From positions 8,408,058 to 8,472,057 of the forward strand of contig CM051034.1 in assembly GCA_027627225.1 (NCBI GenBank): a stretch of 64,000 nt of DNA, read 5' to 3'. Position numbers and translations under genes: made by a program. The notes under the pieces were generated by a model that saw nothing but the letters and a program-made list of their open reading frames with translations, was not told where the DNA came from and made no database searches. This DNA comes from Congeria kusceri (taxonomy: Eukaryota > Mollusca > Bivalvia > Myida > Dreissenidae). Shown one piece after another: positions 1-42,737 of this stretch. Every line of letters begins with the position of its first letter. The first letter of the stretch is position 1.

Positions 1-1787
1 AGGTTCTTACTTTTCGGGATGTAGACGGCTCTCAAACCCCAGCTAAGCCCTTGCGTCCGAGAGCGAACAAGATTCGCTATGTAGACCTGTTACGGGTTCC
101 TGCTCCATCAAAAGTCCATCCCGACTTACTTACGAACAAGGTCTATGTCCCCGCCCTACTCCAGTCTATGATGTCCTCTGAAAATAGAAAGCATAGGTTA
201 AGAAGTGATAAATGTAGGGGCGACTTGGTAATTGACGGCAGTGCTTCCATAAAGTGGGGCTTAGGCTGGGAGGAAAGGTTAAAATGTACAAGATGCAGAT
301 ATGTAGGCAAGCATTATAAGCTTTACAATGAGGTTCCATCAAGTACCAGGGCCAGAAAGGCAGCTCAGATCAATGTAGGCTTCCAAATAGGTGTTGCAAG
401 TACTTCTATTGGGAACACAGGTTCCCGCAGAATTCTCAACACAACCAATATCATTGCTCCCTCTCCACTTGCTATGCAAAAACAAGCAAATAAGGTCAAT
501 ACTGCCCTTAAATCCCTAAATGAGAGAAGCATGTACCAGATTAGAGAAAACTTAGTTGCTGAAAATGCCAAAATTGGTCAAAAAGATCCCTCTAAGGTAA
601 ATGTTGAAGGGGACACTTGCTACAACAATCCAATTTTTAACTCTGACGCGACACCCTTTCAAGCCGGAACTATTGCCATAAGCACTATGTGTGAAAACAA
701 TACCAGAAACAAGCAAATTGTAGTGGTACAAGTAGCAAATAAACTATGCAGGACTGCATCAATGCTTAGGAATAAGGGTAAACCTGTTCAGTGCCCCAAT
801 CATAGGGGGCATTGTTCTGCAAATGTTTCAGAGAGGGAACCAATAGGTGATGAAGGCAAATGGAATAGGTTGTTAGGTGACCAGATCTCTAAGGACATCA
901 AAATAGCAAATTTCACTTGTGATGGGGACAGTAGGGCATTCCAAGGTGTTCGTAACTCTCACGGTCACAATGTGGGTCATCTTAAGGATCTGAGGCACCT
1001 AGGCAACTCGCTGAAGCGCGAGCTCAACAAAGCGCCTTTCTCAAAGGGCATGCTCAAGGGTCATTCCAAGTCTAATATCAGGAGTCGGTTCGCTCTCTCG
1101 GTCAAAGCTAGGTGTATGGCTGAGCTTAAAGCTGCCCACAATAAACACCAGGGTGACATCAAGGTTCTAAAGAAGGTCATGGTTGATGTAATCGCAACCA
1201 TTGTTCTATGCTTCAGTGGTTACTGCGGTACTCATTGTGCAAAGTACAGTTATGTCTGTGCTGGTACAAATAGGCAAGCTAAGAATTTCATGCCAGACAA
1301 TGTCAAGGTTAAAATGGTTGACAGTGACCAACAAGTCCTTAAAAAATGCATTGAAATGGTTTTAGGTCCAGCTGCTCTTGACGCTACCAAACTTTTAACC
1401 ACAACCCAAAAAAGTGAAGCAGTAAACAGGTCGTACCAAGCTGTCAATCCTAAAACTGTGACTTTCTCACGCAACTGTGTAGGTCGAATTCACGGGCAGG
1501 TTCACAAATTAAACAATGGCTATGCTGACTCTGTAATTGCAAAAACCACTGAACTAAATGCTAACCTTACCCAGGGGTCAAAGATTATTAAGCAGATAGC
1601 ATATGAGGACCGCAACGACCTTAACCGAAAGCAAACATCCGCTACCAACAAAGCACGAGCTTTACGTGCCAGGACGCGGAATTATCGATACAAACTGCAT
1701 GAGGAATTACACTACGGCAAGGGCATGAGTGACCCCAAACCTGATTATGACAGTCTTCCACACCTTAAGCATCATAAATATGCTTAG
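1..1787 (+). CDS. Mutator-like transposase, copy 1 (5' end cut by window)
   Basis: Same reading frame as the complete copy at 3623-5581. Base 1 corresponds to base 3795, so about 57 N-terminal residues are missing and the first full codon starts at base 3. The rest is identical to the complete copies and ends with TAG. An AATAAA signal lies 18 nt after the stop (1805-1810) and recurs at the same place in the other copies (5599, 9393, 13185, 15381). The convergent endonuclease gene follows tail-to-tail. Confidence 0.85.
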   Translation, partial: VLTFRDVDGSQTPAKPLRPRANKIRYVDLLRVPAPSKVHPDLLTNKVYVPALLQSMMSSENRKHRLRSDKCRGDLVIDGSASIKWGLGWEERLKCTRCRYVGKHYKLYNEVPSSTRARKAAQINVGFQIGVASTSIGNTGSRRILNTTNIIAPSPLAMQKQANKVNTALKSLNERSMYQIRENLVAENAKIGQKDPSKVNVEGDTCYNNPIFNSDATPFQAGTIAISTMCENNTRNKQIVVVQVANKLCRTASMLRNKGKPVQCPNHRGHCSANVSEREPIGDEGKWNRLLGDQISKDIKIANFTCDGDSRAFQGVRNSHGHNVGHLKDLRHLGNSLKRELNKAPFSKGMLKGHSKSNIRSRFALSVKARCMAELKAAHNKHQGDIKVLKKVMVDVIATIVLCFSGYCGTHCAKYSYVCAGTNRQAKNFMPDNVKVKMVDSDQQVLKKCIEMVLGPAALDATKLLTTTQKSEAVNRSYQAVNPKTVTFSRNCVGRIHGQVHKLNNGYADSVIAKTTELNANLTQGSKIIKQIAYEDRNDLNRKQTSATNKARALRARTRNYRYKLHEELHYGKGMSDPKPDYDSLPHLKHHKYA

Positions 1788-1963
1788 TTGATTGTGTACC
1801 TGATAATAAATTGTTATTATTACCTGTTTTGGCATAAGAGACCTCTAACAAGTGGCCCTCGCGTCAGCATCAGGCGTTCCTCTACCTGAAAAAGGCAAAA
1901 ATACCCAATAGAAATAGATATAAAATGAAAAAAAACATGCATTTATGTATTTTAAGTGTATTT

Positions 1964-2386
1964 CTATGAATAAAAGGAAGTGATAAAGCTTGTTGTATTC
2001 ATGTTTTTACCAAATATGCAGGCTGGCTCAGTTCCATGCCCGCTGCACTGTCCGAACTGTAAACATGTCCGCCGTTCCATGTTGGTGGAATGGGGCTCTA
2101 TGTTTACATGTTCAGGCTTAACACACAAGCTATTGTTGCATAAGTGGCTCACAGAGTCCCTGGCGTTCAATTCTGACTTCATGTAGCACATTAACGCTAC
2201 ACGGTGAACCAAGTATGTCTCTGATTTTATGTCCGAAGGCAATTTAGCCCTCATTCGGCCATAATAGGGTAAGGAACTATTTGAAATACAACCATTCCAG
2301 ATCAAACAATCTGAATTGATGCATTTAATGCACATATTTTCTACTCTTTTGCTCAGAAATGACCAAAAATCTGCTTTCTCATCCAT
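1964..2386 (-). CDS. His-Me finger (His-Cys box type) endonuclease, copy 1
   Basis: A 140-residue single-exon protein read from the first in-frame ATG at 2386. The open frame reaches 2395, but that codon is GTG. It matches the zinc-binding loop of homing endonucleases of the I-PpoI type: catalytic His81 in the motif SHLCNNSLC, zinc ligands Cys83, Cys88 and His93, then Asn102 at the metal-binding position and Cys108. The tail Cys114-X2-His117 with Cys123 could bind a second zinc. In the family, the His activates water and the Asn holds Mg for DNA cleavage. No key residue is missing, so activity is possible. The gene converges on the transposase and begins 46 bp from the TR edge at 2433. An A/T-rich TATA-like stretch lies just upstream of the ATG. 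Confidence 0.75.
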   Translation of the reverse strand: MDEKADFWSFLSKRVENMCIKCINSDCLIWNGCISNSSLPYYGRMRAKLPSDIKSETYLVHRVALMCYMKSELNARDSVSHLCNNSLCVKPEHVNIEPHSTNMERRTCLQFGQCSGHGTEPACIFGKNMNTTSFITSFYS

Positions 2387-2432
2387 ATTTTGCACTTGCA
2401 GACGATATTTTATTTTAACCCAAAGTCAGTTT

Positions 2433-2905
2433 AGGTCACAATATACTAAAAGATTTCCTTAACAAATTCAATGTAAAAGCAATAAATTCAACAAAAAATA
2501 AACTCAACATTTTGCGCGTAGAGACCCTCATAACCATACCTTTTCTTAAAGAGCATTCCGAGCCGAATTGATTTAGACAATAAAAAAGATAGGTCATGTG
2601 ATATGTAAGAAAGAACTCGACGCGAATCAAAGTTCACTGTTTTACGGCCATCTTTTTACCGGATACTCTCCAGTTGAAGGTATACTGCCAACTGTCAAAG
2701 TCTCGTCATGTAGTCTCCAACCTTCAAGCGAAACAGTGAATTTTTAGTACACAACAATGTTTTTCCTACCACACGTACAAAGAAATATTCAAAAATAAAG
2801 TCATGGCAAGTGACTATACAGAAAATTGTGTCTTCAAATAAATGGTGTTGATTTATTTAGAGAGTATAGCATTGCACACCTGAAATATTTAGTATACTGT
2901 AACCT
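2433..2905 (+). repeat. 473-bp terminal-repeat block TR1 with inverted ends
   Basis: The left end reads aggtcacaatatacta (2433-2448). The right end tagtatactgtaacct (2890-2905) is its inverted complement with two mismatches, and the match runs on for about 18 bp. It contains no convincing coding sequence. It lies between the endonuclease start on its left and the transposase leader on its right. Confidence 0.8.
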
Positions 2906-3622
2906 ATAAGAGAAATTTGTTCTCATTAAAATTAGTTTTTCTTGCATATAATTATCTTCCCATGCATATTGCACCAATATATTAAGTTTGGCTTGTATAT
3001 CTGTCCATTTGGCCATTTTATTTCATATTTTCAAACACAGGTGATTTTGGTCGGAAGCCGGTGATTTCAAGCGTCTTGAAGCTTAAATGTCCCTCTAACA
3101 ATTAAAGCTGATATTTGCAATATTTGTGACAAAATACCCAAACAAACCAAACAAACATGTATGGGGGGCTTATGTGGGGTGAGGAGAGAATGACTTTGTT
3201 AGATATGTTTACTCTAAGCCATTTTGATAATGTATTTTTTGTGTATTTTTTAAAAAAAATCACCCCAAAAATGTAAATTTTATAGAAAAAAAATTCCAAT
3301 TTCATCCAAGACAATTAACAAATTAGTCAAAATGGGAGATCAAAGATACTTTGAAGTGTAGAAATCAATCAGCTTCCAGTAATTGCTTGTTTCAAACCAA
3401 TAAAGTGTAAAATCTTTAAAGCACCTTGTTTGTCGCAGCCTCTTTAATTACAGGCCACCAATTATATATTCTAGTATATAATGTCATGAGTGCCTTTAAA
3501 CTGCAGCAGGTGGTCAATTTGCATTGCCTGCTCACATTTAGAGGTTTAAGGGAATACAAAATTGCATATTTTGGGCACAAAATAAGTACTTTGACTTTTT
3601 TTAAGGTGGCAATCTGGTCAAA
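2906..3622 (+). other. Transposase leader region (about 0.7 kb, noncoding)
   Basis: This AT-rich stretch lies between the TR and the transposase ATG and recurs in each unit (6700-7416, 10494-11209). Small open frames on both strands show no domain and no typical codon use. TATA-like sequence (tatatattctagtatataatg region, about 3462-3482) lies some 140-160 bp before the ATG and could be the promoter. That is inference only. Confidence 0.4.
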
Positions 3623-5581
3623 ATGGGGTTCATAACCAAGCAAAAGAAAAAGTTGCTCAATGTTGGTTTTAAACGAGGTGGGACTAGTCCGGTGAAGGGG
3701 AAAAAACATAATTATGAAAGAAGGTCAAATTCCAACACAACCTATGTAAGGTTAGAAAGGTCATCCTTTGAAGCACGGGTAGCTTACAATGACAAGGTTC
3801 TTACTTTTCGGGATGTAGACGGCTCTCAAACCCCAGCTAAGCCCTTGCGTCCGAGAGCGAACAAGATTCGCTATGTAGACCTGTTACGGGTTCCTGCTCC
3901 ATCAAAAGTCCATCCCGACTTACTTACGAACAAGGTCTATGTCCCCGCCCTACTCCAGTCTATGATGTCCTCTGAAAATAGAAAGCATAGGTTAAGAAGT
4001 GATAAATGTAGGGGCGACTTGGTAATTGACGGCAGTGCTTCCATAAAGTGGGGCTTAGGCTGGGAGGAAAGGTTAAAATGTACAAGATGCAGATATGTAG
4101 GCAAGCATTATAAGCTTTACAATGAGGTTCCATCAAGTACCAGGGCCAGAAAGGCAGCTCAGATCAATGTAGGCTTCCAAATAGGTGTTGCAAGTACTTC
4201 TATTGGGAACACAGGTTCCCGCAGAATTCTCAACACAACCAATATCATTGCTCCCTCTCCACTTGCTATGCAAAAACAAGCAAATAAGGTCAATACTGCC
4301 CTTAAATCCCTAAATGAGAGAAGCATGTACCAGATTAGAGAAAACTTAGTTGCTGAAAATGCCAAAATTGGTCAAAAAGATCCCTCTAAGGTAAATGTTG
4401 AAGGGGACACTTGCTACAACAATCCAATTTTTAACTCTGACGCGACACCCTTTCAAGCCGGAACTATTGCCATAAGCACTATGTGTGAAAACAATACCAG
4501 AAACAAGCAAATTGTAGTGGTACAAGTAGCAAATAAACTATGCAGGACTGCATCAATGCTTAGGAATAAGGGTAAACCTGTTCAGTGCCCCAATCATAGG
4601 GGGCATTGTTCTGCAAATGTTTCAGAGAGGGAACCAATAGGTGATGAAGGCAAATGGAATAGGTTGTTAGGTGACCAGATCTCTAAGGACATCAAAATAG
4701 CAAATTTCACTTGTGATGGGGACAGTAGGGCATTCCAAGGTGTTCGTAACTCTCACGGTCACAATGTGGGTCATCTTAAGGATCTGAGGCACCTAGGCAA
4801 CTCGCTGAAGCGCGAGCTCAACAAAGCGCCTTTCTCAAAGGGCATGCTCAAGGGTCATTCCAAGTCTAATATCAGGAGTCGGTTCGCTCTCTCGGTCAAA
4901 GCTAGGTGTATGGCTGAGCTTAAAGCTGCCCACAATAAACACCAGGGTGACATCAAGGTTCTAAAGAAGGTCATGGTTGATGTAATCGCAACCATTGTTC
5001 TATGCTTCAGTGGTTACTGCGGTACTCATTGTGCAAAGTACAGTTATGTCTGTGCTGGTACAAATAGGCAAGCTAAGAATTTCATGCCAGACAATGTCAA
5101 GGTTAAAATGGTTGACAGTGACCAACAAGTCCTTAAAAAATGCATTGAAATGGTTTTAGGTCCAGCTGCTCTTGACGCTACCAAACTTTTAACCACAACC
5201 CAAAAAAGTGAAGCAGTAAACAGGTCGTACCAAGCTGTCAATCCTAAAACTGTGACTTTCTCACGCAACTGTGTAGGTCGAATTCACGGGCAGGTTCACA
5301 AATTAAACAATGGCTATGCTGACTCTGTAATTGCAAAAACCACTGAACTAAATGCTAACCTTACCCAGGGGTCAAAGATTATTAAGCAGATAGCATATGA
5401 GGACCGCAACGACCTTAACCGAAAGCAAACATCCGCTACCAACAAAGCACGAGCTTTACGTGCCAGGACGCGGAATTATCGATACAAACTGCATGAGGAA
5501 TTACACTACGGCAAGGGCATGAGTGACCCCAAACCTGATTATGACAGTCTTCCACACCTTAAGCATCATAAATATGCTTAG
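3623..5581 (+). CDS. Mutator-like DDE transposase, complete copy 2
   Basis: A 652-residue single-exon protein. The ATG is in good context (A at -3, G at +4). The N-terminus is short and basic, and a CxxC pair (Cys153, Cys156) could bind zinc. The core matches the Mutator-like transposase domain that is common in invertebrate genomes. Likely catalytic acids are Asp262 in GDTCYNN, Asp365 or Asp367 in CDGDSRAF, and Glu530 in KSEAVNRS. Between the second Asp and the Glu is a Cys/His cluster (Cys466, His469, Cys470, Cys477) typical of the MULE insertion region. The C-terminus is basic. All expected acidic residues are present, so the copy looks intact. The usual role is cutting at the inverted ends of its element and rejoining to target DNA. 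The DDE assignment is from motif spacing and remembered family members, not a structure. Confidence 0.85.
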   Translation: MGFITKQKKKLLNVGFKRGGTSPVKGKKHNYERRSNSNTTYVRLERSSFEARVAYNDKVLTFRDVDGSQTPAKPLRPRANKIRYVDLLRVPAPSKVHPDLLTNKVYVPALLQSMMSSENRKHRLRSDKCRGDLVIDGSASIKWGLGWEERLKCTRCRYVGKHYKLYNEVPSSTRARKAAQINVGFQIGVASTSIGNTGSRRILNTTNIIAPSPLAMQKQANKVNTALKSLNERSMYQIRENLVAENAKIGQKDPSKVNVEGDTCYNNPIFNSDATPFQAGTIAISTMCENNTRNKQIVVVQVANKLCRTASMLRNKGKPVQCPNHRGHCSANVSEREPIGDEGKWNRLLGDQISKDIKIANFTCDGDSRAFQGVRNSHGHNVGHLKDLRHLGNSLKRELNKAPFSKGMLKGHSKSNIRSRFALSVKARCMAELKAAHNKHQGDIKVLKKVMVDVIATIVLCFSGYCGTHCAKYSYVCAGTNRQAKNFMPDNVKVKMVDSDQQVLKKCIEMVLGPAALDATKLLTTTQKSEAVNRSYQAVNPKTVTFSRNCVGRIHGQVHKLNNGYADSVIAKTTELNANLTQGSKIIKQIAYEDRNDLNRKQTSATNKARALRARTRNYRYKLHEELHYGKGMSDPKPDYDSLPHLKHHKYA

Positions 5582-5757
5582 TTGATTGTGTACCTGATAA
5601 TAAATTGTTATTATTACCTGTTTTGGCATAAGAGACCTCTAACAAGTGGCCCTCGCGTCAGCATCAGGCGTTCCTCTACCTGAAAAAGGCAAAAATACCC
5701 AATAGAAATAGATATAAAATGAAAAAAAACATGCATTTATGTATTTTAAGTGTATTT

Positions 5758-6180
5758 CTATGAATAAAAGGAAGTGATAAAGCTTGTTGTATTCATGTTT
5801 TTACCAAATATGCAGGCTGGCTCAGTTCCATGCCCGCTGCACTGTCCGAACTGTAAACATGTCCGCCGTTCCATGTTGGTGGAATGGGGCTCTATGTTTA
5901 CATGTTCAGGCTTAACACACAAGCTATTGTTGCATAAGTGGCTCACAGAGTCCCTGGCGTTCAATTCTGACTTCATGTAGCACATTAACGCTACACGGTG
6001 AACCAAGTATGTCTCTGATTTTATGTCCGAAGGCAATTTAGCCCTCATTCGGCCATAATAGGGTAAGGAACTATTTGAAATACAACCATTCCAGATCAAA
6101 CAATCTGAATTGATGCATTTAATGCACATATTTTCTACTCTTTTGCTCAGAAATGACCAAAAATCTGCTTTCTCATCCAT
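5758..6180 (-). CDS. His-Me finger endonuclease, copy 2
   Basis: Identical protein to copy 1 (140 aa from the ATG at 6180). It converges on transposase copy 2 with 176 bp between the two stop codons. Its start lies 46 bp from TR2. The His81/Asn102 pair and the zinc ligands are intact. Confidence 0.75.
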   Translation of the reverse strand: MDEKADFWSFLSKRVENMCIKCINSDCLIWNGCISNSSLPYYGRMRAKLPSDIKSETYLVHRVALMCYMKSELNARDSVSHLCNNSLCVKPEHVNIEPHSTNMERRTCLQFGQCSGHGTEPACIFGKNMNTTSFITSFYS

Positions 6181-6226
6181 ATTTTGCACTTGCAGACGAT
6201 ATTTTATTTTAACCCAAAGTCAGTTT

Positions 6227-6699
6227 AGGTCACAATATACTAAAAGATTTCCTTAACAAATTCAATGTAAAAGCAATAAATTCAACAAAAAATAAACTCA
6301 ACATTTTGCGCGTAGAGACCCTCATAACCATACCTTTTCTTAAAGAGCATTCCGAGCCGAATTGATTTAGACAATAAAAAAGATAGGTCATGTGATATGT
6401 AAGAAAGAACTCGACGCGAATCAAAGTTCACTGTTTTACGGCCATCTTTTTACCGGATACTCTCCAGTTGAAGGTATACTGCCAACTGTCAAAGTCTCGT
6501 CATGTAGTCTCCAACCTTCAAGCGAAACAGTGAATTTTTAGTACACAACAATGTTTTTCCTACCACACGTACAAAGAAATATTCAAAAATAAAGTCATGG
6601 CAAGTGACTATACAGAAAATTGTGTCTTCAAATAAATGGTGTTGATTTATTTAGAGAGTATAGCATTGCACACCTGAAATATTTAGTATACTGTAACCT
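6227..6699 (+). repeat. Terminal-repeat block TR2
   Basis: Same as TR1, with ends aggtcacaatatacta and tagtatactgtaacct. TR1 through TR2 (2433-6699) would form one complete 4.27-kb element: TR, leader, transposase, endonuclease, TR. Confidence 0.8.
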
Positions 6700-7416
6700 A
6701 TAAGAGAAATTTGTTCTCATTAAAATTAGTTTTTCTTGCATATAATTATCTTCCCATGCATATTGCACCAATATATTAAGTTTGGCTTGTATATCTGTCC
6801 ATTTGGCCATTTTATTTCATATTTTCAAACACAGGTGATTTTGGTCGGAAGCCGGTGATTTCAAGCGTCTTGAAGCTTAAATGTCCCTCTAACAATTAAA
6901 GCTGATATTTGCAATATTTGTGACAAAATACCCAAACAAACCAAACAAACATGTATGGGGGGCTTATGTGGGGTGAGGAGAGAATGACTTTGTTAGATAT
7001 GTTTACTCTAAGCCATTTTGATAATGTATTTTTTGTGTATTTTTTAAAAAAAATCACCCCAAAAATGTAAATTTTATAGAAAAAAAATTCCAATTTCATC
7101 CAAGACAATTAACAAATTAGTCAAAATGGGAGATCAAAGATACTTTGAAGTGTAGAAATCAATCAGCTTCCAGTAATTGCTTGTTTCAAACCAATAAAGT
7201 GTAAAATCTTTAAAGCACCTTGTTTGTCGCAGCCTCTTTAATTACAGGCCACCAATTATATATTCTAGTATATAATGTCATGAGTGCCTTTAAACTGCAG
7301 CAGGTGGTCAATTTGCATTGCCTGCTCACATTTAGAGGTTTAAGGGAATACAAAATTGCATATTTTGGGCACAAAATAAGTACTTTGACTTTTTTTAAGG
7401 TGGCAATCTGGTCAAA

Positions 7417-9375
7417 ATGGGGTTCATAACCAAGCAAAAGAAAAAGTTGCTCAATGTTGGTTTTAAACGAGGTGGGACTAGTCCGGTGAAGGGGAAAAAA
7501 CATAATTATGAAAGAAGGTCAAATTCCAACACAACCTATGTAAGGTTAGAAAGGTCATCCTTTGAAGCACGGGTAGCTTACAATGACAAGGTTCTTACTT
7601 TTCGGGATGTAGACGGCTCTCAAACCCCAGCTAAGCCCTTGCGTCCGAGAGCGAACAAGATTCGCTATGTAGACCTGTTACGGGTTCCTGCTCCATCAAA
7701 AGTCCATCCCGACTTACTTACGAACAAGGTCTATGTCCCCGCCCTACTCCAGTCTATGATGTCCTCTGAAAATAGAAAGCATAGGTTAAGAAGTGATAAA
7801 TGTAGGGGCGACTTGGTAATTGACGGCAGTGCTTCCATAAAGTGGGGCTTAGGCTGGGAGGAAAGGTTAAAATGTACAAGATGCAGATATGTAGGCAAGC
7901 ATTATAAGCTTTACAATGAGGTTCCATCAAGTACCAGGGCCAGAAAGGCAGCTCAGATCAATGTAGGCTTCCAAATAGGTGTTGCAAGTACTTCTATTGG
8001 GAACACAGGTTCCCGCAGAATTCTCAACACAACCAATATCATTGCTCCCTCTCCACTTGCTATGCAAAAACAAGCAAATAAGGTCAATACTGCCCTTAAA
8101 TCCCTAAATGAGAGAAGCATGTACCAGATTAGAGAAAACTTAGTTGCTGAAAATGCCAAAATTGGTCAAAAAGATCCCTCTAAGGTAAATGTTGAAGGGG
8201 ACACTTGCTACAACAATCCAATTTTTAACTCTGACGCGACACCCTTTCAAGCCGGAACTATTGCCATAAGCACTATGTGTGAAAACAATACCAGAAACAA
8301 GCAAATTGTAGTGGTACAAGTAGCAAATAAACTATGCAGGACTGCATCAATGCTTAGGAATAAGGGTAAACCTGTTCAGTGCCCCAATCATAGGGGGCAT
8401 TGTTCTGCAAATGTTTCAGAGAGGGAACCAATAGGTGATGAAGGCAAATGGAATAGGTTGTTAGGTGACCAGATCTCTAAGGACATCAAAATAGCAAATT
8501 TCACTTGTGATGGGGACAGTAGGGCATTCCAAGGTGTTCGTAACTCTCACGGTCACAATGTGGGTCATCTTAAGGATCTGAGGCACCTAGGCAACTCGCT
8601 GAAGCGCGAGCTCAACAAAGCGCCTTTCTCAAAGGGCATGCTCAAGGGTCATTCCAAGTCTAATATCAGGAGTCGGTTCGCTCTCTCGGTCAAAGCTAGG
8701 TGTATGGCTGAGCTTAAAGCTGCCCACAATAAACACCAGGGTGACATCAAGGTTCTAAAGAAGGTCATGGTTGATGTAATCGCAACCATTGTTCTATGCT
8801 TCAGTGGTTACTGCGGTACTCATTGTGCAAAGTACAGTTATGTCTGTGCTGGTACAAATAGGCAAGCTAAGAATTTCATGCCAGACAATGTCAAGGTTAA
8901 AATGGTTGACAGTGACCAACAAGTCCTTAAAAAATGCATTGAAATGGTTTTAGGTCCAGCTGCTCTTGACGCTACCAAACTTTTAACCACAACCCAAAAA
9001 AGTGAAGCAGTAAACAGGTCGTACCAAGCTGTCAATCCTAAAACTGTGACTTTCTCACGCAACTGTGTAGGTCGAATTCACGGGCAGGTTCACAAATTAA
9101 ACAATGGCTATGCTGACTCTGTAATTGCAAAAACCACTGAACTAAATGCTAACCTTACCCAGGGGTCAAAGATTATTAAGCAGATAGCATATGAGGACCG
9201 CAACGACCTTAACCGAAAGCAAACATCCGCTACCAACAAAGCACGAGCTTTACGTGCCAGGACGCGGAATTATCGATACAAACTGCATGAGGAATTACAC
9301 TACGGCAAGGGCATGAGTGACCCCAAACCTGATTATGACAGTCTTCCACACCTTAAGCATCATAAATATGCTTAG
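7417..9375 (+). CDS. Mutator-like DDE transposase, complete copy 3
   Basis: Same 652-residue protein as copy 2, with no coding difference seen. The start context, catalytic acids, Cys/His cluster and downstream AATAAA are all kept. Such near identity over coding and noncoding parts points to very recent duplication or ongoing homogenisation, not to selection on the protein alone. Confidence 0.85.
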   Translation: MGFITKQKKKLLNVGFKRGGTSPVKGKKHNYERRSNSNTTYVRLERSSFEARVAYNDKVLTFRDVDGSQTPAKPLRPRANKIRYVDLLRVPAPSKVHPDLLTNKVYVPALLQSMMSSENRKHRLRSDKCRGDLVIDGSASIKWGLGWEERLKCTRCRYVGKHYKLYNEVPSSTRARKAAQINVGFQIGVASTSIGNTGSRRILNTTNIIAPSPLAMQKQANKVNTALKSLNERSMYQIRENLVAENAKIGQKDPSKVNVEGDTCYNNPIFNSDATPFQAGTIAISTMCENNTRNKQIVVVQVANKLCRTASMLRNKGKPVQCPNHRGHCSANVSEREPIGDEGKWNRLLGDQISKDIKIANFTCDGDSRAFQGVRNSHGHNVGHLKDLRHLGNSLKRELNKAPFSKGMLKGHSKSNIRSRFALSVKARCMAELKAAHNKHQGDIKVLKKVMVDVIATIVLCFSGYCGTHCAKYSYVCAGTNRQAKNFMPDNVKVKMVDSDQQVLKKCIEMVLGPAALDATKLLTTTQKSEAVNRSYQAVNPKTVTFSRNCVGRIHGQVHKLNNGYADSVIAKTTELNANLTQGSKIIKQIAYEDRNDLNRKQTSATNKARALRARTRNYRYKLHEELHYGKGMSDPKPDYDSLPHLKHHKYA

Positions 9376-9551
9376 TTGATTGTGTACCTGATAATAAATT
9401 GTTATTATTACCTGTTTTGGCATAAGAGACCTCTAACAAGTGGCCCTCGCGTCAGCATCAGGCGTTCCTCTACCTGAAAAAGGCAAAAATACCCAATAGA
9501 AATAGATATAAAATGAAAAAAAACATGCATTTATGTATTTTAAGTGTATTT

Positions 9552-9974
9552 CTATGAATAAAAGGAAGTGATAAAGCTTGTTGTATTCATGTTTTTACCA
9601 AATATGCAGGCTGGCTCAGTTCCATGCCCGCTGCACTGTCCGAACTGTAAACATGTCCGCCGTTCCATGTTGGTGGAATGGGGCTCTATGTTTACATGTT
9701 CAGGCTTAACACACAAGCTATTGTTGCATAAGTGGCTCACAGAGTCCCTGGCGTTCAATTCTGACTTCATGTAGCACATTAACGCTACACGGTGAACCAA
9801 GTATGTCTCTGATTTTATGTCCGAAGGCAATTTAGCCCTCATTCGGCCATAATAGGGTAAGGAACTATTTGAAATACAACCATTCCAGATCAAACAATCT
9901 GAATTGATGCATTTAATGCACATATTTTCTACTCTTTTGCTCAGAAATGACCAAAAATCTGCTTTCTCATCCAT
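9552..9974 (-). CDS. His-Me finger endonuclease, copy 3
   Basis: Identical to copies 1 and 2 (140 aa, ATG at 9974), with the same convergent placement and intact catalytic and zinc-binding residues. Confidence 0.75.
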   Translation of the reverse strand: MDEKADFWSFLSKRVENMCIKCINSDCLIWNGCISNSSLPYYGRMRAKLPSDIKSETYLVHRVALMCYMKSELNARDSVSHLCNNSLCVKPEHVNIEPHSTNMERRTCLQFGQCSGHGTEPACIFGKNMNTTSFITSFYS

Positions 9975-10020
9975 ATTTTGCACTTGCAGACGATATTTTA
10001 TTTTAACCCAAAGTCAGTTT

Positions 10021-10493
10021 AGGTCACAATATACTAAAAGATTTCCTTAACAAATTCAATGTAAAAGCAATAAATTCAACAAAAAATAAACTCAACATTT
10101 TGCGCGTAGAGACCCTCATAACCATACCTTTTCTTAAAGAGCATTCCGAGCCGAATTGATTTAGACAATAAAAAAGATAGGTCATGTGATATGTAAGAAA
10201 GAACTCGACGCGAATCAAAGTTCACTGTTTTACGGCCATCTTTTTACCGGATACTCTCCAGTTGAAGGTATACTGCCAACTGTCAAAGTCTCGTCATGTA
10301 GTCTCCAACCTTCAAGCGAAACAGTGAATTTTTAGTACACAACAATGTTTTTCCTACCACACGTACAAAGAAATATTCAAAAATAAAGTCATGGCAAGTG
10401 ACTATACAGAAAATTGTGTCTTCAAATAAATGGTGTTGATTTATTTAGAGAGTATAGCATTGCACACCTGAAATATTTAGTATACTGTAACCT
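10021..10493 (+). repeat. Terminal-repeat block TR3
   Basis: Same sequence and inverted ends as TR1 and TR2. Confidence 0.8.
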
Positions 10494-11209
10494 ATAAGAG
10501 AAATTTGTTCTCATTAAAATTAGTTTTTCTTGCATATAATTATCTTCCCATGCATATTGCACCAATATATTAAGTTTGGCTTGTATATCTGTCCATTTGG
10601 CCATTTTATTTCATATTTTCAAACACAGGTGATTTTGGTCGGAAGCCGGTGATTTCAAGCGTCTTGAAGCTTAAATGTCCCTCTAACAATTAAAGCTGAT
10701 ATTTGCAATATTTGTGACAAAATACCCAAACAAACCAAACAAACATGTATGGGGGGCTTATGTGGGGTGAGGAGAGAATGACTTTGTTAGATATGTTTAC
10801 TCTAAGCCATTTTGATAATGTATTTTTTGTGTATTTTTTAAAAAAAATCACCCCAAAAATGTAAATTTTATAGAAAAAAATTCCAATTTCATCCAAGACA
10901 ATTAACAAATTAGTCAAAATGGGAGATCAAAGATACTTTGAAGTGTAGAAATCAATCAGCTTCCAGTAATTGCTTGTTTCAAACCAATAAAGTGTAAAAT
11001 CTTTAAAGCACCTTGTTTGTCGCAGCCTCTTTAATTACAGGCCACCAATTATATATTCTAGTATATAATGTCATGAGTGCCTTTAAACTGCAGCAGGTGG
11101 TCAATTTGCATTGCCTGCTCACATTTAGAGGTTTAAGGGAATACAAAATTGCATATTTTGGGCACAAAATAAGTACTTTGACTTTTTTTAAGGTGGCAAT
11201 CTGGTCAAA

Positions 11210-13171
11210 ATGGGGTTCATAACCAAGCAAAAGAAAAAGTTGCTCAATGTTGGTTTTAAACGAGGTGGGACTAGTCCGGTGAAGGGGAAAAAACATAATT
11301 ATGAAAGAAGGTCAAATTCCAACACAACCTATGTAAGGTTAGAAAGGTCATCCTTTGAAGCACGGGTAGCTTACAATGACAAGGTTCTTACTTTTCGGGA
11401 TGTAGACGGCTCTCAAACCCCAGCTAAGCCCTTGCGTCCGAGAGCGAACAAGATTCGCTATGTAGACCTGTTACGGGTTCCTGCTCCATCAAAAGTCCAT
11501 CCCGACTTACTTACGAACAAGGTCTATGTCCCCGCCCTACTCCAGTCTATGATGTCCTCTGAAAATAGAAAGCATAGGTTAAGAAGTGATAAATGTAGGG
11601 GCGACTTGGTAATTGACGGCAGTGCTTCCATAAAGTGGGGCTTAGGCTGGGAGGAAAGGTTAAAATGTACAAGATGCAGATATGTAGGCAAGCATTATAA
11701 GCTTTACAATGAGGTTCCATCAAGTACCAGGGCCAGAAAGGCAGCTCAGATCAATGTAGGCTTCCAAATAGGTGTTGCAAGTACTTCTATTGGGAACACA
11801 GGTTCCCGCAGAATTCTCAACACAACCAATATCATTGCTCCCTCTCCACTTGCTATGCAAAAACAAGCAAATAAGGTCAATACTGCCCTTAAATCCCTAA
11901 ATGAGAGAAGCATGTACCAGATTAGAGAAAACTTAGTTGCTGAAAATGCCAAAATTGGTCAAAAAGATCCCTCTAAGGTAAATGTTGAAGGGGACACTTG
12001 CTACAACAATCCAATTTTTAACTCTGACGCGACACCCTTTCAAGCCGGAACTATTGCCATAAGCACTATGTGTGAAAACAATACCAGAAACAAGCAAATT
12101 GTAGTGGTACAAGTAGCAAATAAACTATGCAGGACTGCATCAATGCTTAGGAATAAGGGTAAACCTGTTCAGTGCCCCAATCATAGGGGGCATTGTTCTG
12201 CAAATGTTTCAGAGAGGGAACCAATAGGTGATGAAGGCAAATGGAATAGGTTGTTAGGTGACCAGATCTCTAAGGACATCAAAATAGCAAATTTCACTTG
12301 TGATGGGGACAGTAGGGCATTCCAAGGTGTTCGTAACTCTCACGGTCACAATGTGGGTCATCTTAAGGATCTGAGGCACCTAGGCAACTCGCTGAAGCGC
12401 GAGCTCAACAAAGCGCCTTTCTCAAAGGGCATGCTCAAGGGTCATTCCAAGTCTAATATCAGGAGTCGGTTCGCTCTCTCGGTCAAAGCTAGGTGTATGG
12501 CTGAGCTTAAAGCTGCCCACAATAAACACCAGGGTGACATCAAGGTTCTAAAGAAGGTCATGGTTGATGTAATCGCAACCATTGTTCTATGCTTCAGTGG
12601 TTACTGCGGTACTCATTGTGCAAAGTACAGTTATGTCTGTGCTGGTACAAATAGGCAAGCTAAGAATTTCATGCCAGACAATGTCAAGGTTAAAATGGTT
12701 GACAGTGACCAACAAGTCCTTAAAAAATGCATTGAAATGGTTTTAGGTCCAGCTGCTCTTGACGCTACCAAACTTTTAACCACAACCCAAAAAAGTGAAG
12801 CAGTAAACAGGTCGTACCAAGCTGTCAATCCTAAAACTGTGACTTTCTCACGCAACTGTGTAGGTCGAATTCACGGGCAGGTTCACAAATTAAACAATGG
12901 CTATGCTGACTCTGTAATTGCAAAAACCACTGAACTAAATGCTAACCTTACCCAGGGGTCAAAGATTATTAAGCAGATAGCATATGAGGACCGCAACGAC
13001 CTTAACCGAAAGCAAACATCCGCTACCAACAAAGCACGAGCTTTACGTGCCAGGACGCGGAATTATCGATACAAACTGCATGAGGAATTACACTACGGCA
13101 AGGGCATGAGTGACCCCAACCTGATTATGACAGTCTTCCACACCTTAAGCATCATAAATATGCTTAGTTGA
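11210..13171 (+). CDS. Mutator-like transposase, copy 4 (frameshifted C-terminus)
   Basis: Identical to the complete copies through the catalytic core and the KSEAVNRS glutamate. Near 13119 one A of 'ccccaaacc' is missing, so the last 17 or so residues are replaced by an unrelated tail and the protein ends at TGA 13169-13171 (653 aa). The lost tail is the basic/His-rich C-terminus, and the catalytic region is untouched. This could be a real mutation or a consensus error in a short homopolymer. Confidence 0.8.
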   Translation: MGFITKQKKKLLNVGFKRGGTSPVKGKKHNYERRSNSNTTYVRLERSSFEARVAYNDKVLTFRDVDGSQTPAKPLRPRANKIRYVDLLRVPAPSKVHPDLLTNKVYVPALLQSMMSSENRKHRLRSDKCRGDLVIDGSASIKWGLGWEERLKCTRCRYVGKHYKLYNEVPSSTRARKAAQINVGFQIGVASTSIGNTGSRRILNTTNIIAPSPLAMQKQANKVNTALKSLNERSMYQIRENLVAENAKIGQKDPSKVNVEGDTCYNNPIFNSDATPFQAGTIAISTMCENNTRNKQIVVVQVANKLCRTASMLRNKGKPVQCPNHRGHCSANVSEREPIGDEGKWNRLLGDQISKDIKIANFTCDGDSRAFQGVRNSHGHNVGHLKDLRHLGNSLKRELNKAPFSKGMLKGHSKSNIRSRFALSVKARCMAELKAAHNKHQGDIKVLKKVMVDVIATIVLCFSGYCGTHCAKYSYVCAGTNRQAKNFMPDNVKVKMVDSDQQVLKKCIEMVLGPAALDATKLLTTTQKSEAVNRSYQAVNPKTVTFSRNCVGRIHGQVHKLNNGYADSVIAKTTELNANLTQGSKIIKQIAYEDRNDLNRKQTSATNKARALRARTRNYRYKLHEELHYGKGMSDPNLIMTVFHTLSIINMLS

Positions 13172-13343
13172 TTGTGTACCTGATAATAAATTGTTATTAT
13201 TACCTGTTTTGGCATAAGAGACCTCTAACAAGTGGCCCTCGCGTCAGCATCAGGCGTTCCTCTACCTGAAAAAGGCAAAAATACCCAATAGAAATAGATA
13301 TAAAATGAAAAAAAACATGCATTTATGTATTTTAAGTGTATTT

Positions 13344-13766
13344 CTATGAATAAAAGGAAGTGATAAAGCTTGTTGTATTCATGTTTTTACCAAATATGCA
13401 GGCTGGCTCAGTTCCATGCCCGCTGCACTGTCCGAACTGTAAACATGTCCGCCGTTCCATGTTGGTGGAATGGGGCTCTATGTTTACATGTTCAGGCTTA
13501 ACACACAAGCTATTGTTGCATAAGTGGCTCACAGAGTCCCTGGCGTTCAATTCTGACTTCATGTAGCACATTAACGCTACACGGTGAACCAAGTATGTCT
13601 CTGATTTTATGTCCGAAGGCAATTTAGCCCTCATTCGGCCATAATAGGGTAAGGAACTATTTGAAATACAACCATTCCAGATCAAACAATCTGAATTGAT
13701 GCATTTAATGCACATATTTTCTACTCTTTTGCTCAGAAATGACCAAAAATCTGCTTTCTCATCCAT
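13344..13766 (-). CDS. His-Me finger endonuclease, copy 4
   Basis: Identical to the other copies (140 aa, ATG at 13766). It stays intact next to the frameshifted transposase copy. Confidence 0.75.
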   Translation of the reverse strand: MDEKADFWSFLSKRVENMCIKCINSDCLIWNGCISNSSLPYYGRMRAKLPSDIKSETYLVHRVALMCYMKSELNARDSVSHLCNNSLCVKPEHVNIEPHSTNMERRTCLQFGQCSGHGTEPACIFGKNMNTTSFITSFYS

Positions 13767-13812
13767 ATTTTGCACTTGCAGACGATATTTTATTTTAACC
13801 CAAAGTCAGTTT

Positions 13813-14285
13813 AGGTCACAATATACTAAAAGATTTCCTTAACAAATTCAATGTAAAAGCAATAAATTCAACAAAAAATAAACTCAACATTTTGCGCGTA
13901 GAGACCCTCATAACCATACCTTTTCTTAAAGAGCATTCCGAGCCGAATTGATTTAGACAATAAAAAAGATAGGTCATGTGATATGTAAGAAAGAACTCGA
14001 CGCGAATCAAAGTTCACTGTTTTACGGCCATCTTTTTACCGGATACTCTCCAGTTGAAGGTATACTGCCAACTGTCAAAGTCTCGTCATGTAGTCTCCAA
14101 CCTTCAAGCGAAACAGTGAATTTTTAGTACACAACAATGTTTTTCCTACCACACGTACAAAGAAATATTCAAAAATAAAGTCATGGCAAGTGACTATACA
14201 GAAAATTGTGTCTTCAAATAAATGGTGTTGATTTATTTAGAGAGTATAGCATTGCACACCTGAAATATTTAGTATACTGTAACCT
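13813..14285 (+). repeat. Terminal-repeat block TR4
   Basis: Same sequence and inverted ends as the other TR copies. It is the last TR before the assembly gap. Confidence 0.8.
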
Positions 14286-14503
14286 ATAAGAGAAATTTGT
14301 TCTCATTAAAATTAGTTTTTCTTGCATATAATTATCTTCCCATGCATATTGCACCAATATATTAAGTTTGGCTTGTATATCTGTCCATTTGGCCATTTTA
14401 TTTCATATTTTCAAACACAGGTGATTTTGGTCGGAAGCCGGTGATTTCAAGCGTCTTGAAGCTTAAATGTCCCTCTAACAATTAAAGCTGATATTTGCAA
14501 TAT

Positions 14504-14703
14504 NNNNNNNNNNNNNNNNNNNNNNNNNNNNNNNNNNNNNNNNNNNNNNNNNNNNNNNNNNNNNNNNNNNNNNNNNNNNNNNNNNNNNNNNNNNNNNNNN
14601 NNNNNNNNNNNNNNNNNNNNNNNNNNNNNNNNNNNNNNNNNNNNNNNNNNNNNNNNNNNNNNNNNNNNNNNNNNNNNNNNNNNNNNNNNNNNNNNNNNNN
14701 NNN
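14504..14703. other. Assembly gap (200 N) inside the array
   Basis: Exactly 200 N. The left flank is in the leader of the unit (691 bp after the start of TR4). The right flank resumes in transposase codon 434, which is 2,489 bp into a normal unit. At least 1,798 bp is therefore missing, plus any whole number of 3,794-bp units. The 200 N is a placeholder, and the true copy number is unknown. Open frames that cross the N run are artefacts. Confidence 0.95.
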
Positions 14704-15363
14704 AAAGCTGCCCACAATAAACACCAGGGTGACATCAAGGTTCTAAAGAAGGTCATGGTTGATGTAATCGCAACCATTGTTCTATGCTTCAGTGGTTACT
14801 GCGGTACTCATTGTGCAAAGTACAGTTATGTCTGTGCTGGTACAAATAGGCAAGCTAAGAATTTCATGCCAGACAATGTCAAGGTTAAAATGGTTGACAG
14901 TGACCAACAAGTCCTTAAAAAATGCATTGAAATGGTTTTAGGTCCAGCTGCTCTTGACGCTACCAAACTTTTAACCACAACCCAAAAAAGTGAAGCAGTA
15001 AACAGGTCGTACCAAGCTGTCAATCCTAAAACTGTGACTTTCTCACGCAACTGTGTAGGTCGAATTCACGGGCAGGTTCACAAATTAAACAATGGCTATG
15101 CTGACTCTGTAATTGCAAAAACCACTGAACTAAATGCTAACCTTACCCAGGGGTCAAAGATTATTAAGCAGATAGCATATGAGGACCGCAACGACCTTAA
15201 CCGAAAGCAAACATCCGCTACCAACAAAGCACGAGCTTTACGTGCCAGGACGCGGAATTATCGATACAAACTGCATGAGGAATTACACTACGGCAAGGGC
15301 ATGAGTGACCCCAAACCTGATTATGACAGTCTTCCACACCTTAAGCATCATAAATATGCTTAG
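14704..15363 (+). CDS. Mutator-like transposase, last copy (5' part in gap)
   Basis: In frame from the first base after the gap. It encodes residues 434-652 of the complete protein, including the Cys/His cluster and the catalytic Glu530, with the normal C-terminus and TAG stop. It is truncated by missing assembly sequence, not by visible mutation. Confidence 0.85.
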   Translation, partial: KAAHNKHQGDIKVLKKVMVDVIATIVLCFSGYCGTHCAKYSYVCAGTNRQAKNFMPDNVKVKMVDSDQQVLKKCIEMVLGPAALDATKLLTTTQKSEAVNRSYQAVNPKTVTFSRNCVGRIHGQVHKLNNGYADSVIAKTTELNANLTQGSKIIKQIAYEDRNDLNRKQTSATNKARALRARTRNYRYKLHEELHYGKGMSDPKPDYDSLPHLKHHKYA

Positions 15364-15539
15364 TTGATTGTGTACCTGATAATAAATTGTTATTATTACC
15401 TGTTTTGGCATAAGAGACCTCTAACAAGTGGCCCTCGCGTCAGCATCAGGCGTTCCTCTACCTGAAAAAGGCAAAAATACCCAATAGAAATAGATATAAA
15501 ATGAAAAAAAACATGCATTTATGTATTTTAAGTGTATTT

Positions 15540-15962
15540 CTATGAATAAAAGGAAGTGATAAAGCTTGTTGTATTCATGTTTTTACCAAATATGCAGGCT
15601 GGCTCAGTTCCATGCCCGCTGCACTGTCCGAACTGTAAACATGTCCGCCGTTCCATGTTGGTGGAATGGGGCTCTATGTTTACATGTTCAGGCTTAACAC
15701 ACAAGCTATTGTTGCATAAGTGGCTCACAGAGTCCCTGGCGTTCAATTCTGACTTCATGTAGCACATTAACGCTACACGGTGAACCAAGTATGTCTCTGA
15801 TTTTATGTCCGAAGGCAATTTAGCCCTCATTCGGCCATAATAGGGTAAGGAACTATTTGAAATACAACCATTCCAGATCAAACAATCTGAATTGATGCAT
15901 TTAATGCACATATTTTCTACTCTTTTGCTCAGAAATGACCAAAAATCTGCTTTCTCATCCAT
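15540..15962 (-). CDS. His-Me finger endonuclease, copy 5
   Basis: Identical to the other copies (140 aa, ATG at 15962). It is the rightmost gene of the array and starts 46 bp from TR5. Confidence 0.75.
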   Translation of the reverse strand: MDEKADFWSFLSKRVENMCIKCINSDCLIWNGCISNSSLPYYGRMRAKLPSDIKSETYLVHRVALMCYMKSELNARDSVSHLCNNSLCVKPEHVNIEPHSTNMERRTCLQFGQCSGHGTEPACIFGKNMNTTSFITSFYS

Positions 15963-16008
15963 ATTTTGCACTTGCAGACGATATTTTATTTTAACCCAAA
16001 GTCAGTTT

Positions 16009-16481
16009 AGGTCACAATATACTAAAAGATTTCCTTAACAAATTCAATGTAAAAGCAATAAATTCAACAAAAAATAAACTCAACATTTTGCGCGTACAGA
16101 CCCTCATAACCATACCTTTTCTTAAAGAGCATTCCGAGCCGAATTGATTTAGACAATAAAAAAGATAGGTCATGTGATATGTAAGAAAGAACTCGACGCG
16201 AATCAAAGTTCACTGTTTTACGGCCATCTTTTTACCGGATACTCTCCAGTTGAAGGTATACTGCCAACTGTCAAAGTCTCGTCATGTAGTCTCCAACCTT
16301 CAAGCGAAACAGTGAATTTTTAGTACACAACAATGTTTTTCCTACCACACGTACAAAGAAATATTCAAAAATAAAGTCATGGCAAGTGACTATACAGAAA
16401 ATTGTGTCTTCAAATAAATGGTGTTGATTTATTTAGAGAGTATAGCATTGCACACCTGAAATATTTAGTATACTGTAACCT
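16009..16481 (+). repeat. Terminal-repeat block TR5, right end of the array
   Basis: Same as the other TR copies apart from one G-to-C change at 16097. Its last bases tagtatactgtaacct end at 16481. The next base (A) still agrees with the other units, after which the sequence is unrelated. The array boundary is thus the same nucleotide as the TR boundary. Confidence 0.85.
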
Positions 16482-17299
16482 ACATGTTCAGGGTTATACG
16501 TTATTAATGTCCTGGTTTGTGGTGGTAGATCTAAGAACATTAAAGAAAAACAACTAATAAAATACAAAATAAAATATCGATGTTAACTATCCGGATATAT
16601 CTATTATCTGGAAGCATAGGCCGATAAATTCGGAGTGAATATATGAACTCGAGCATTTCGATTCAAAATATAGTTGAAGTTAACCTCTTAGATTTTCTTT
16701 GGGGTAATTGACTTGACAGGTCACGTGACACACGACCCTACGACGAAAATAATAAAATATTGACAGTTGCTCTGGCAGTCAATATCTCGTCTGAATGGTA
16801 TTAAAATGAATTGTCTGTGAAGTAACATTACTTGATACTTAATTCTTAACATCGACTATCAGATTTGATAATGGTTGCAAAACTTAGATACGTATTCTTA
16901 GCATACATCGACTCTACCGTCTCTATTCATACTCATAGCTAGTCTTTCTAGCCTTTTTTGCACTTGGTCTGTCTTATAGTTTCACTATAGCTATGTCTGA
17001 CATCTCTCGACAACCATATTCATAGTTCAAACTGTTTTTTGTAGAAAAAGCCTGGTGTGTCCTAAATTGGATGATGTTTTTGTATTGTTTTAACTTTAGT
17101 AGACGTACTTCCAATCATATAGTAATTTAAATGTTTTCTCGATGATTTGTATCTGAAAATCTCACATAATTTTAAATGTTTCAATAAAAACAAAACATTG
17201 TCAGATTTATGGTACATTGAATTTGGGTTGTTCTAGTATATTAAGTGATACATTAGTGTACAAAATCTATCAGCTGCTCGGTTATTGTAAAGTGATGGT
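16482..17299. other. AT-rich noncoding flank of the array
   Basis: I see no gene, RNA gene or recognisable repeat here. No open frame on either strand shows coding character. Confidence 0.5.
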
Positions 17300-41430: not shown

Positions 41431-42737
41431 AGCGCGACTTTTCGAAGACAAAGCAAGCTATTCTACTCGCCCCGGCGTCGGCGTCCGAGCTAGGTTTAAG
41501 TTTTTTCGGTAAGCTAGTTTCTTAGGTGTGGCTTGATGGATTTCTTTCAGTCTTAAAACATTTATTCCCCACATTAAAATTAACCTATAGGCCAAGTTTG
41601 GTAACTCTAGTTTGACATTTGTGAAAATATGGGTCTTTTTACACTTAAATTTTTTACGCAAGCTATATTGACAGGTTAAAGTTTTTTGGTAAGCTGGTTT
41701 CTCAGGAATGGCTTAAGGGATTTCACTCAAACTTAGAACACTTATTCCCTATATTAAAATGAACTCATGGGCCAATTTTGATAACTCTGAAATTTGTCAA
41801 AATTATGGGCCTTTTTACACTTAGAAATTTTACATATAAGCTATAGGTTATATGGACAGGTTAAAGTTTTTCGGTTAAGTCTAGTTTCTCAACTTTTTGT
41901 TTCCACTCTCTAACTCGAGAACGGATAAAGCTATTGTAATGAAACTGCAAACATAGATAACTTATAGCGAGACCTCCTTAGGGATTGCATATGGGGTTGG
42001 TGGGGTCAAGGTCACTGTTACTAAAAATAGAAAAATGGTTTCCGCTCAATAATTTGAGAACAAATTGAGATATTTTAATAAAACTTAATACATAGATACC
42101 TTATATCAAGACCTCACTTGGGATTGCATATGGGGTGCATGGATGGGGTAAAGGTGAAGGTCACTGTTACTATAAATAGAAAAACGGTTTCCGCTCAATA
42201 ACTTGAGAACGCATTGAGATATTTAATTGAAACTTAATACATAGATACCTTATATCGAGACCTTGCTTGGAATTGCATAGCGGGTGGGTGGGGTAAAGGT
42301 CAATGTTACTAAAAATAGAAAAAACGGTTTCCGCTCAATAACTTGAGAACGCATTGAGATATTTTAATGAAACTTTATACATACATACCTTATATTGAGA
42401 CCTCGCTTGGGATTGCATATGGGGTGGGTGAGGTCAAGGCCACTGTTACTAAAAATAGAAAAACGGTTTCCGATCAATAACTTGAGAATGCATTGAGATA
42501 TTTTAATGAAACTTAATACATAGATACCTTATATCGAGACCTCACTTGGGATTTTATATGGGGTGGGTGGAGTCAAGGTCAAGGTCACTTTTACTAAAAA
42601 TTTTATTGATGTGCTGACTTAAATGCATTTCGTTACACAAATTTGGTTTTCGTGGAATTTCCATATTTGTTGTTTTGAAAAAAAAACCCAGTAATTTTGA
42701 CATCACAAGAAAAGCTGTACTTCAACAGCTCTTGTTT
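41431..42737. mobile_element. Composite tandem-repeat MITE D
   Basis: It starts near tagcgcgacttttcgaagac, followed by 'gccccggcgtcggcgtccga', and ends at 'gtacttcaacagctcttgtt'. The first part has two to three units near 175 bp ('ttcactcaaacttagaacac'). The second part has five units near 150 bp of the same kind as in E1 ('ccgctcaataacttgagaac'). Confidence 0.55.

Follow-up and report, generated by a model that had tools for sequence, protein, structure and literature searches.

A multimeric array in the bivalve Congeria kusceri is probably an insertion of a KolobokP-type composite-like DNA transposon

KolobokP elements, described by Kojima and Bao (2022, Mob DNA 13:24, PMC9587614), have the layout LTDR-INT-LTDR, in which long terminal direct repeats (LTDRs) of ~450 or 660 bp, each with its own terminal inverted repeats (TIRs) of up to 18 bp and RR...YY ends, flank an internal segment (INT). 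As set out there, the INT encodes a sense DDD/E transposase with a C/DxxH motif, a CCHC finger after the first D and a second finger before the E, and, downstream and in antisense, an I-PpoI-like His-Cys box nuclease. Solo LTDRs, (LTDR-INT)n-LTDR multimers and INT-INT joints are described, and nuclease-induced unequal crossover or circles are proposed as the source of the multimers (PMC9587614). The 228 families come from 7 animal phyla, bivalves being especially rich; autonomous oyster families measure 4022-4748 bp, a 473-bp LTDR is cited for Corbicula fluminea, and target duplications are mainly 3-4 or 4-5 bp, a length that is family-dependent rather than defining (PMC9587614). The present analysis concerns a stretch of 64,000 nucleotides of Congeria kusceri, termed the window (C11:8408058-8472057, within a 1.549-Gb assembly of 1071 contigs), in which 473-bp terminal repeats (TRs) alternate with INTs of 3321 bp. 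With a probability of roughly 0.92 this array is a multimeric insertion of a KolobokP-type composite-like DNA transposon, a reading that includes proposed excision of TRs and growth of arrays in place. The kind of element was already published in 2022 (PMC9587614) and is not a new class, and literature searches on this design turned up KolobokP as the sole class.

The whole array, C11:8406696-8424538, is TR-(INT-TR)5, i.e. six TRs and five INTs, and begins upstream of the window. Window positions 1-2432 (+) correspond by blastn to INT positions 890-3321, the upstream part being read from the genome. They are followed on the + strand by a TR (2433-2905), a complete INT (2906-6226), a TR (6227-6699), a second complete INT (6700-10020), a TR (10021-10493), a third INT (10494-13812), a TR (13813-14285), an INT broken by a 200-N assembly gap at 14504-14703 (14286-16008) and the final TR (16009-16481). 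The transposase frame lies at 3623-5581 (+) in the first complete INT and 7417-9375 (+) in the second, with the antisense nuclease frame at 5758-6189 (-) and 9552-9983 (-), respectively. The third INT carries two one-base homopolymer deletions, probably sequencing errors, and the end of its transposase frame (11210-13171) is altered by one. The dinucleotide AC stands directly outside both array ends, at 16482-16483 (+) on the right and at C11:8406694-8406695, before the window, on the left, and the array stops at 16481, as given in the original prediction. The internal segments of 3.3 kb claimed there are likewise real, and four of its five identical blocks are indeed identical; the fifth carries one substitution, G89C, so that "identical" was only nearly right.

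Each TR opens AGGTCACAATATACTA and closes TAGTATACTGTAACCT. The inverted ends expected on every block are thus present, though imperfect (16 bases with 2 mismatches; 88.9% over an 18-bp inverted match), and inspection of the INT ends gave no convincing terminal inverted repeats of the INT itself. A TR-INT monomer plus terminal TR measures 4267 bp. The lone diverged block foreseen at 36664-37134 (+) is a solo TR. It belongs to an older subfamily, is 76.9% identical to the array TR, shares its two ends and has TT on each side.

Each 473-bp TR carries both transposon ends. Insertions take three forms, TR-INT-TR, (TR-INT)n-TR and solo TR, and most have a 2-bp duplication just beyond their outermost TRs. 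All three predicted forms were found at dispersed loci. Duplications were counted over 29 insertions with both outer flanks or, in a nested case on C5, both sides of the interrupted TR; an array on C59, the outer C5 array and six unplaced contigs were left out because both ends were not read. An exact 2-bp match outside the ends is present in 20 of the 29, whereas 20,000 shuffled pairings gave 3.8 on average and never more than 12, and both the window array (AC) and the diverged window solo (TT) match in this way. The remaining nine match over 3 bp (4), over 4 bp (1) or over none of 2, 3 and 4 bp (4). Three of the four 3-bp insertions (C7:23339616, C8:27124501 and C16:14877320) have one terminal TR base missing or replaced, and there the duplication reads 3 bp, not 2. 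An earlier count of 27 rows also gave 20, with two altered-end rows trimmed by 1 base and taken as 2 bp. At two loci the pre-insertion sequence is known: on C5 an array is inserted inversely into the TR of another array with AT duplicated, and C6:34037006 lies inside a 28-bp tandem repeat whose phase, judged by eye, is kept once the element and one TC are removed.

The duplicated dinucleotides are at, tc, ac, tt, gt, ta, gg and tg. A Tc1-like TA duplication, first suggested by the window sites, was rejected on this variation, and a reading as a junction of right and left terminal inverted repeats (RTIR-LTIR) was rejected on the dispersed single-unit insertions with outer duplications. The Mutator (MuDR) superfamily makes target duplications of 8-11 bp, and duplications of that length were not found at the insertion sites.

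The 652-aa (amino acid) sense protein of the INT matches Pfam PF20700 'Mutator' (E 8e-41) and the 143-aa antisense protein matches PF05551 zf-His_Me_endon (E 2.5e-10). These were the sole matches in a Pfam scan of the two proteins at E up to 1, with no reverse transcriptase, protease or integrase domain. The predicted domains, a Mutator-like DDE transposase and a His-Me endonuclease without reverse transcriptase, are thus in place; under the scheme of PMC9587614 the transposase nevertheless belongs to the Kolobok superfamily, Mutator being the Pfam label. A motif scan of the transposase gives EGDT at 260, CCHC at 307-329, DGD at 365, DLRH at 387, CGTHCAKYSYVC at 466 and TQKSEAVN at 526, in the expected order of D, CCHC finger, DGD, DLRH, second finger and TQKSEAVN. 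Nuclease residues 83-111 fall at the spacing of I-PpoI S97, H98, H110, E114 and N119 (numbering as in PMC9587614). Putative catalytic residues of both proteins are assigned from these motifs. The same nuclease spacing also fits I-PpoI C100, C105 and C125. Searches of viral contigs, phage records and prokaryote genomes gave no relatives of the transposase, and a sequence search of solved structures gave no useful match, including no I-PpoI match for the nuclease.

The likeness to KolobokP as described in PMC9587614 extends to TRs of 473 bp with their own TIRs and RR...YY ends, to the DDD/E transposase motifs and antisense I-PpoI-like nuclease (matched by motif and domain to the paper's description), to solo TRs and multimers with target duplications, to INT-INT joints with a micro-deletion at either tip, and to a length of 4267 bp that falls within the oyster range. 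One alternative offered in the original prediction, a composite-type element whose two mobile ends face the same way, comes near this description. Other lineages of the Kolobok superfamily share the DDD/E transposase, the C/DxxH motif, in most cases the zinc finger or fingers and the RR...YY ends, but they have TTAA 4-bp duplications and neither long terminal direct repeats nor this nuclease, according to the same source. Bacterial composite and IS26 pseudo-compound transposons, compared here by description (in part that of PMC9587614), also have direct repeats that are complete transposon ends, tandem arrays and single-repeat remnants; there the flanking insertion sequence (IS) encodes the transposase, whereas here the genes are in the INT. 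Long terminal repeat (LTR) retrotransposons share long terminal direct repeats, internal genes, solo repeats and occasional tandem arrays. Unlike them, the present element has none of their three domains in the Pfam scan of its two proteins, and its repeats have 16-bp inverted ends.

The family is abundant. A TR search listed 41 matches, 40 of them whole-length at 100% (best 40 of 394 candidates scored), and an INT search listed 31 (best 29 of 448 candidates scored), of which 30 were fetched; both hold best-scoring copies only, which biases identity upward. The exact 26-base TR start has 2403 matches in the genome (reversed-pattern control 0), a count that misses TRs with a changed 26-mer, and this, with the 40 whole-length copies, excludes chance. 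A pattern of INT end plus TR start has 1866 matches (control 0); the ratio 2403:1866 is merely rough, since the two patterns are not nested. Contig C1 appears complete for exact TR starts, since the listing continues beyond it, and holds 80 of them in 32 clusters: 19 pairs spaced 3745-3795 bp, the size of TR-INT-TR, a pair with a spacing of 7117 bp, which fits TR-INT-INT-TR, another with a spacing of 458 bp, 5 arrays that have 5 to 8 TRs each, and 6 single TRs. Two singles have an INT before them (51426679 and 58495718), one has an INT-TR joint nearby (83167965), and C1:91334236-91334708 was read as a solo TR. With three of the six singles adjoining or neighbouring an INT, exact solo TRs of the young family make up at most 3 of the 32 clusters on C1. 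Two solo TRs at 100% were read, one of them flanked tt/tt.

The refuting condition named in the original prediction, that most INT copies lack flanking TRs or end elsewhere than at the TR ends, fails: among the 60 ends of the 30 fetched INTs, 57 adjoin a TR, 3 another INT (two distinct joints) and none host DNA, in a selection that favours whole copies and in which broken or shortened INTs would not appear. The transposase frame is identical in 30/30 of these best-scoring copies. One INT in the C59 array has lost part of its interior. C187:298381 and C13:3068025 show one and the same solo TR, identically flanked but in opposite orientation, and the unplaced contigs accordingly seem to include alternate haplotypes.

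Joints between INTs are numerous. Those with an intact right tip number 537 exact matches and those with an intact left tip 338 (control 0 for each), the two sets overlapping in the no-loss joints common to both; the first 100 of each were listed, and joints <60 kb apart were counted as one locus. Among the intact-right joints listed, the left tip is without TT in 61, only the TR is absent in 30, 5 have lost 1 base and 4 have gained 1-2 bases; the class that has lost 2 bp occurs in 15/21 loci. The intact-left joints comprise 35 without AT at the right tip, 7 with a loss of 3 bases, 49 with no loss and 9 with a gain of 1-2 bases, the 2-bp class occurring in 13/25 loci. Mixed joint kinds are present inside one locus in 5/21 and 9/25 loci, respectively. 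The common 2-bp loss has the length of the target duplication, and joint kinds differ inside single loci; both would be explained most simply if single TRs were excised repeatedly and independently. According to PMC9587614 the corresponding joints have almost always lost 3 or 4 bp, whereas in the present genome most are short of 0 or 2 bp, a few of 1 or 3, and others are longer by 1-2.

Ten TR-TR joints have spacers of up to 10 bases, and among them TR-TT-TR occurs at 3 loci, once read within the C59 array. TR-TT-TR would be the reciprocal product of TR excision; insertion of a TR at TT before another TR would give the same arrangement. Separately, TR-TR joints with the spacer ATAATTT are present at C10:7369705, C332:125091 and C859:18116, the spacer resembling an INT reduced to its first four and last three bases.

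Variants confined to single loci bear on how arrays arise. G2546T is present in 4/4 INT pieces at C6:43.13M, T2992C in 3/3 INTs at C4:66.94M, and C2049A and C488A each in 2/2 at C4:99.89M; each was seen at no other locus read. Runs of INT-INT joints have a spacing of their own at each locus, 3316-3319 bp at C1:15.46M, 3279-3280 at C6:76.91M and 3321 at C8:60.43M. The longest run listed, C8:14112979-14156155, has 14 consecutive INT-INT joints 3316-3322 bp apart, i.e. 15 INT units as judged from spacing, the DNA between joints being unread; the main text of PMC9587614 gives (INT)2 and (INT)4. It lies within C8:14105874-14246259, ~140 kb, where 30 INT-INT joints are listed, these 14 consecutive among them, with wider gaps too. 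Because units share variants and INT-INT runs have locus-specific spacing, arrays look mostly grown from one founder per site, and this growth seems to proceed without need for TRs. The C8 locus of ~140 kb is also of note in itself, as the transposase and nuclease genes there stand in satellite-like arrays mostly without terminal repeats.

From these patterns the TR is inferred to be a separately excisable transposon and the arrays to grow clonally. In the proposed mechanism, the transposase would bring together the left and right ends of the same TR, so that a solo TR is excised or moved, or a left end and the right end belonging to a later TR, so that one or more whole units are moved. Excision of a TR from the interior of an array would leave an INT-INT joint, often minus 2 bp at one tip. 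Unequal exchange among identical units, whether TR-bearing or TR-less, would then make arrays longer where they stand, and cuts by the nuclease may aid that exchange.

The alternative that survives best, though it is rather unlikely, is that rolling or multimeric circles of TR plus INT give rise to the arrays prior to insertion or in the course of it, and that these circles integrate whole or recombine into solo TRs. Circles are one option given in PMC9587614. The TR-TT-TR pairs look like abutted ends with a short spacer, and wherever a single-unit element that was read has a TR substitution (2/2), both of its TRs carry the private variant, G306T at C4:20674389 and C403G at C8:27124502, a pattern that counts for the main reading and for circles alike. 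The locus-confined variants common to the units read there and the INT-INT runs with locus-specific spacing fit local duplication instead, and circles were not seen, though none were sought in reads. The present data favour growth in place over circles. That the multi-unit arrays were created by misassembly of a dispersed repeat or an episome is very improbable: the last window unit does contain an N gap, and arrays on six unplaced contigs (C842, C740, C706, C593, C541 and C462) have unseen outer ends, but the number of units differs from locus to locus, units can be told apart by variants particular to their locus, and chromosome-scale contigs hold many of the arrays, set between host flanks that show matching 2-bp duplications. 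Weakest is the original prediction's own alternative, that the 473-bp block is an unrelated miniature inverted-repeat transposable element (MITE) inserted into the INT unit before amplification, the true element being the INT with other ends; block-free INT-INT joints, some with no base lost, and solo copies of the block would suit it, but it is refuted by dispersed single-unit insertions that end at TR ends with 2-bp duplications mostly around the composite and not around inner TRs (those of the array are flanked ttt/ata, without a match), and the adjoining of INT ends to TRs, the lack of convincing INT inverted repeats and the spaced TR pairs of an older subfamily, described next, also speak against it.

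The TR-INT-TR architecture seems older than the present burst, as older subfamilies show TR pairs and mostly 2-bp duplications. With the diverged solo TR as query, 1534 candidates were obtained and the best 40 scored; among these are a group at 91-94%, two at 88-90%, and a group at 83-84% with TRs of ~462 bp. The 91-94% group includes two TR pairs, spaced 3782 and 3786 bp; of their interiors the inner flanks were read, and these resemble INT. The 40-44-base ends of 20 older TRs were read and represent 17 distinct insertions, as the C187/C13 copies share flanks and four TRs end two pairs. By eye and with no shuffle control, 11/17 match over 2 bp and no more, among them one whose TR end is altered; 2 match over 3 bp, 3 have no match and 1 is ambiguous.

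Several observations weigh against the KolobokP-type reading with TR excision and growth in place. Duplications here are mostly 2 bp (20/29) rather than the 3-5 bp described in PMC9587614, 4/29 insertions match over none of 2, 3 or 4 bp, the 3-bp and 4-bp counts are inside the shuffle range (mean 0.9, maximum 5, and mean 0.2, maximum 3, respectively), and the second of the 100% solo TRs has no matching flanks. The empty allele looked for at 16481 did not appear: when the two flanks of the window array were joined and searched for, nothing in the assembly matched across the junction (best 40 of 107 candidates scored). T346A (2/2, C4:66.94M) and G2765A (2/2, C4:99.89M) are also present in C5 units and so are not private. 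G89C is confined to the last TR of the window array, a variant also present in 3/3 TRs read on C740, and G412T to the first TR at C16:14877320. Predicted structures of the two proteins are low-confidence (mean pLDDT, the predicted local distance difference test, 32.8 and 34.9). Most joint, solo and array counts were made after the KolobokP paper was known.

Other features of the window include a 530-codon open frame at 39277-40866 (+) with a C-terminal RING finger (PF13639, E 1.6e-12), which we take to resemble an RNF103-type membrane E3 ligase. At 45314-45611 a 60-bp repeat is present in 5 copies with 96% matches and is open on the - strand within a 408-codon frame that gave no Pfam match above the cut-off. 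Related tandem arrays with units of ~139-145 bp and GGGGTCAAGGTCA-like motifs lie at 26600-27541 and 41899-42589.

To the published description of KolobokP the present family adds mostly 2-bp duplications, INT-INT joints mostly with 0- or 2-bp loss at one tip, TR-TT-TR pairs, a run of 14 joints and private shared variants. The mechanism of KolobokP is unproven, and a young, abundant family offers readable products of excision and amplification. As copies are many and nearly identical, single events, i.e. excision footprints, TR-TR joints and one-founder array growth, can be read with little mutational noise. The equality of the 2-bp duplication with the common 2-bp loss at INT-INT tips gives a quantitative test of the excision model, and the long INT runs without terminal repeats suggest array growth independent of TRs. 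A tentative extension, more likely wrong than right, is that the TR moves together with 2 flanking bases, as a mobile repeat unit of 475 bp that takes the form of a circle or dimer with a duplication-length spacer in the manner of IS3-type elements, and that the INT, once rid of its repeats, turns into a gene-bearing satellite and goes on amplifying. If true, one DNA transposon would lead two lives, as a composite transposon and as a transposase-plus-homing-endonuclease satellite.

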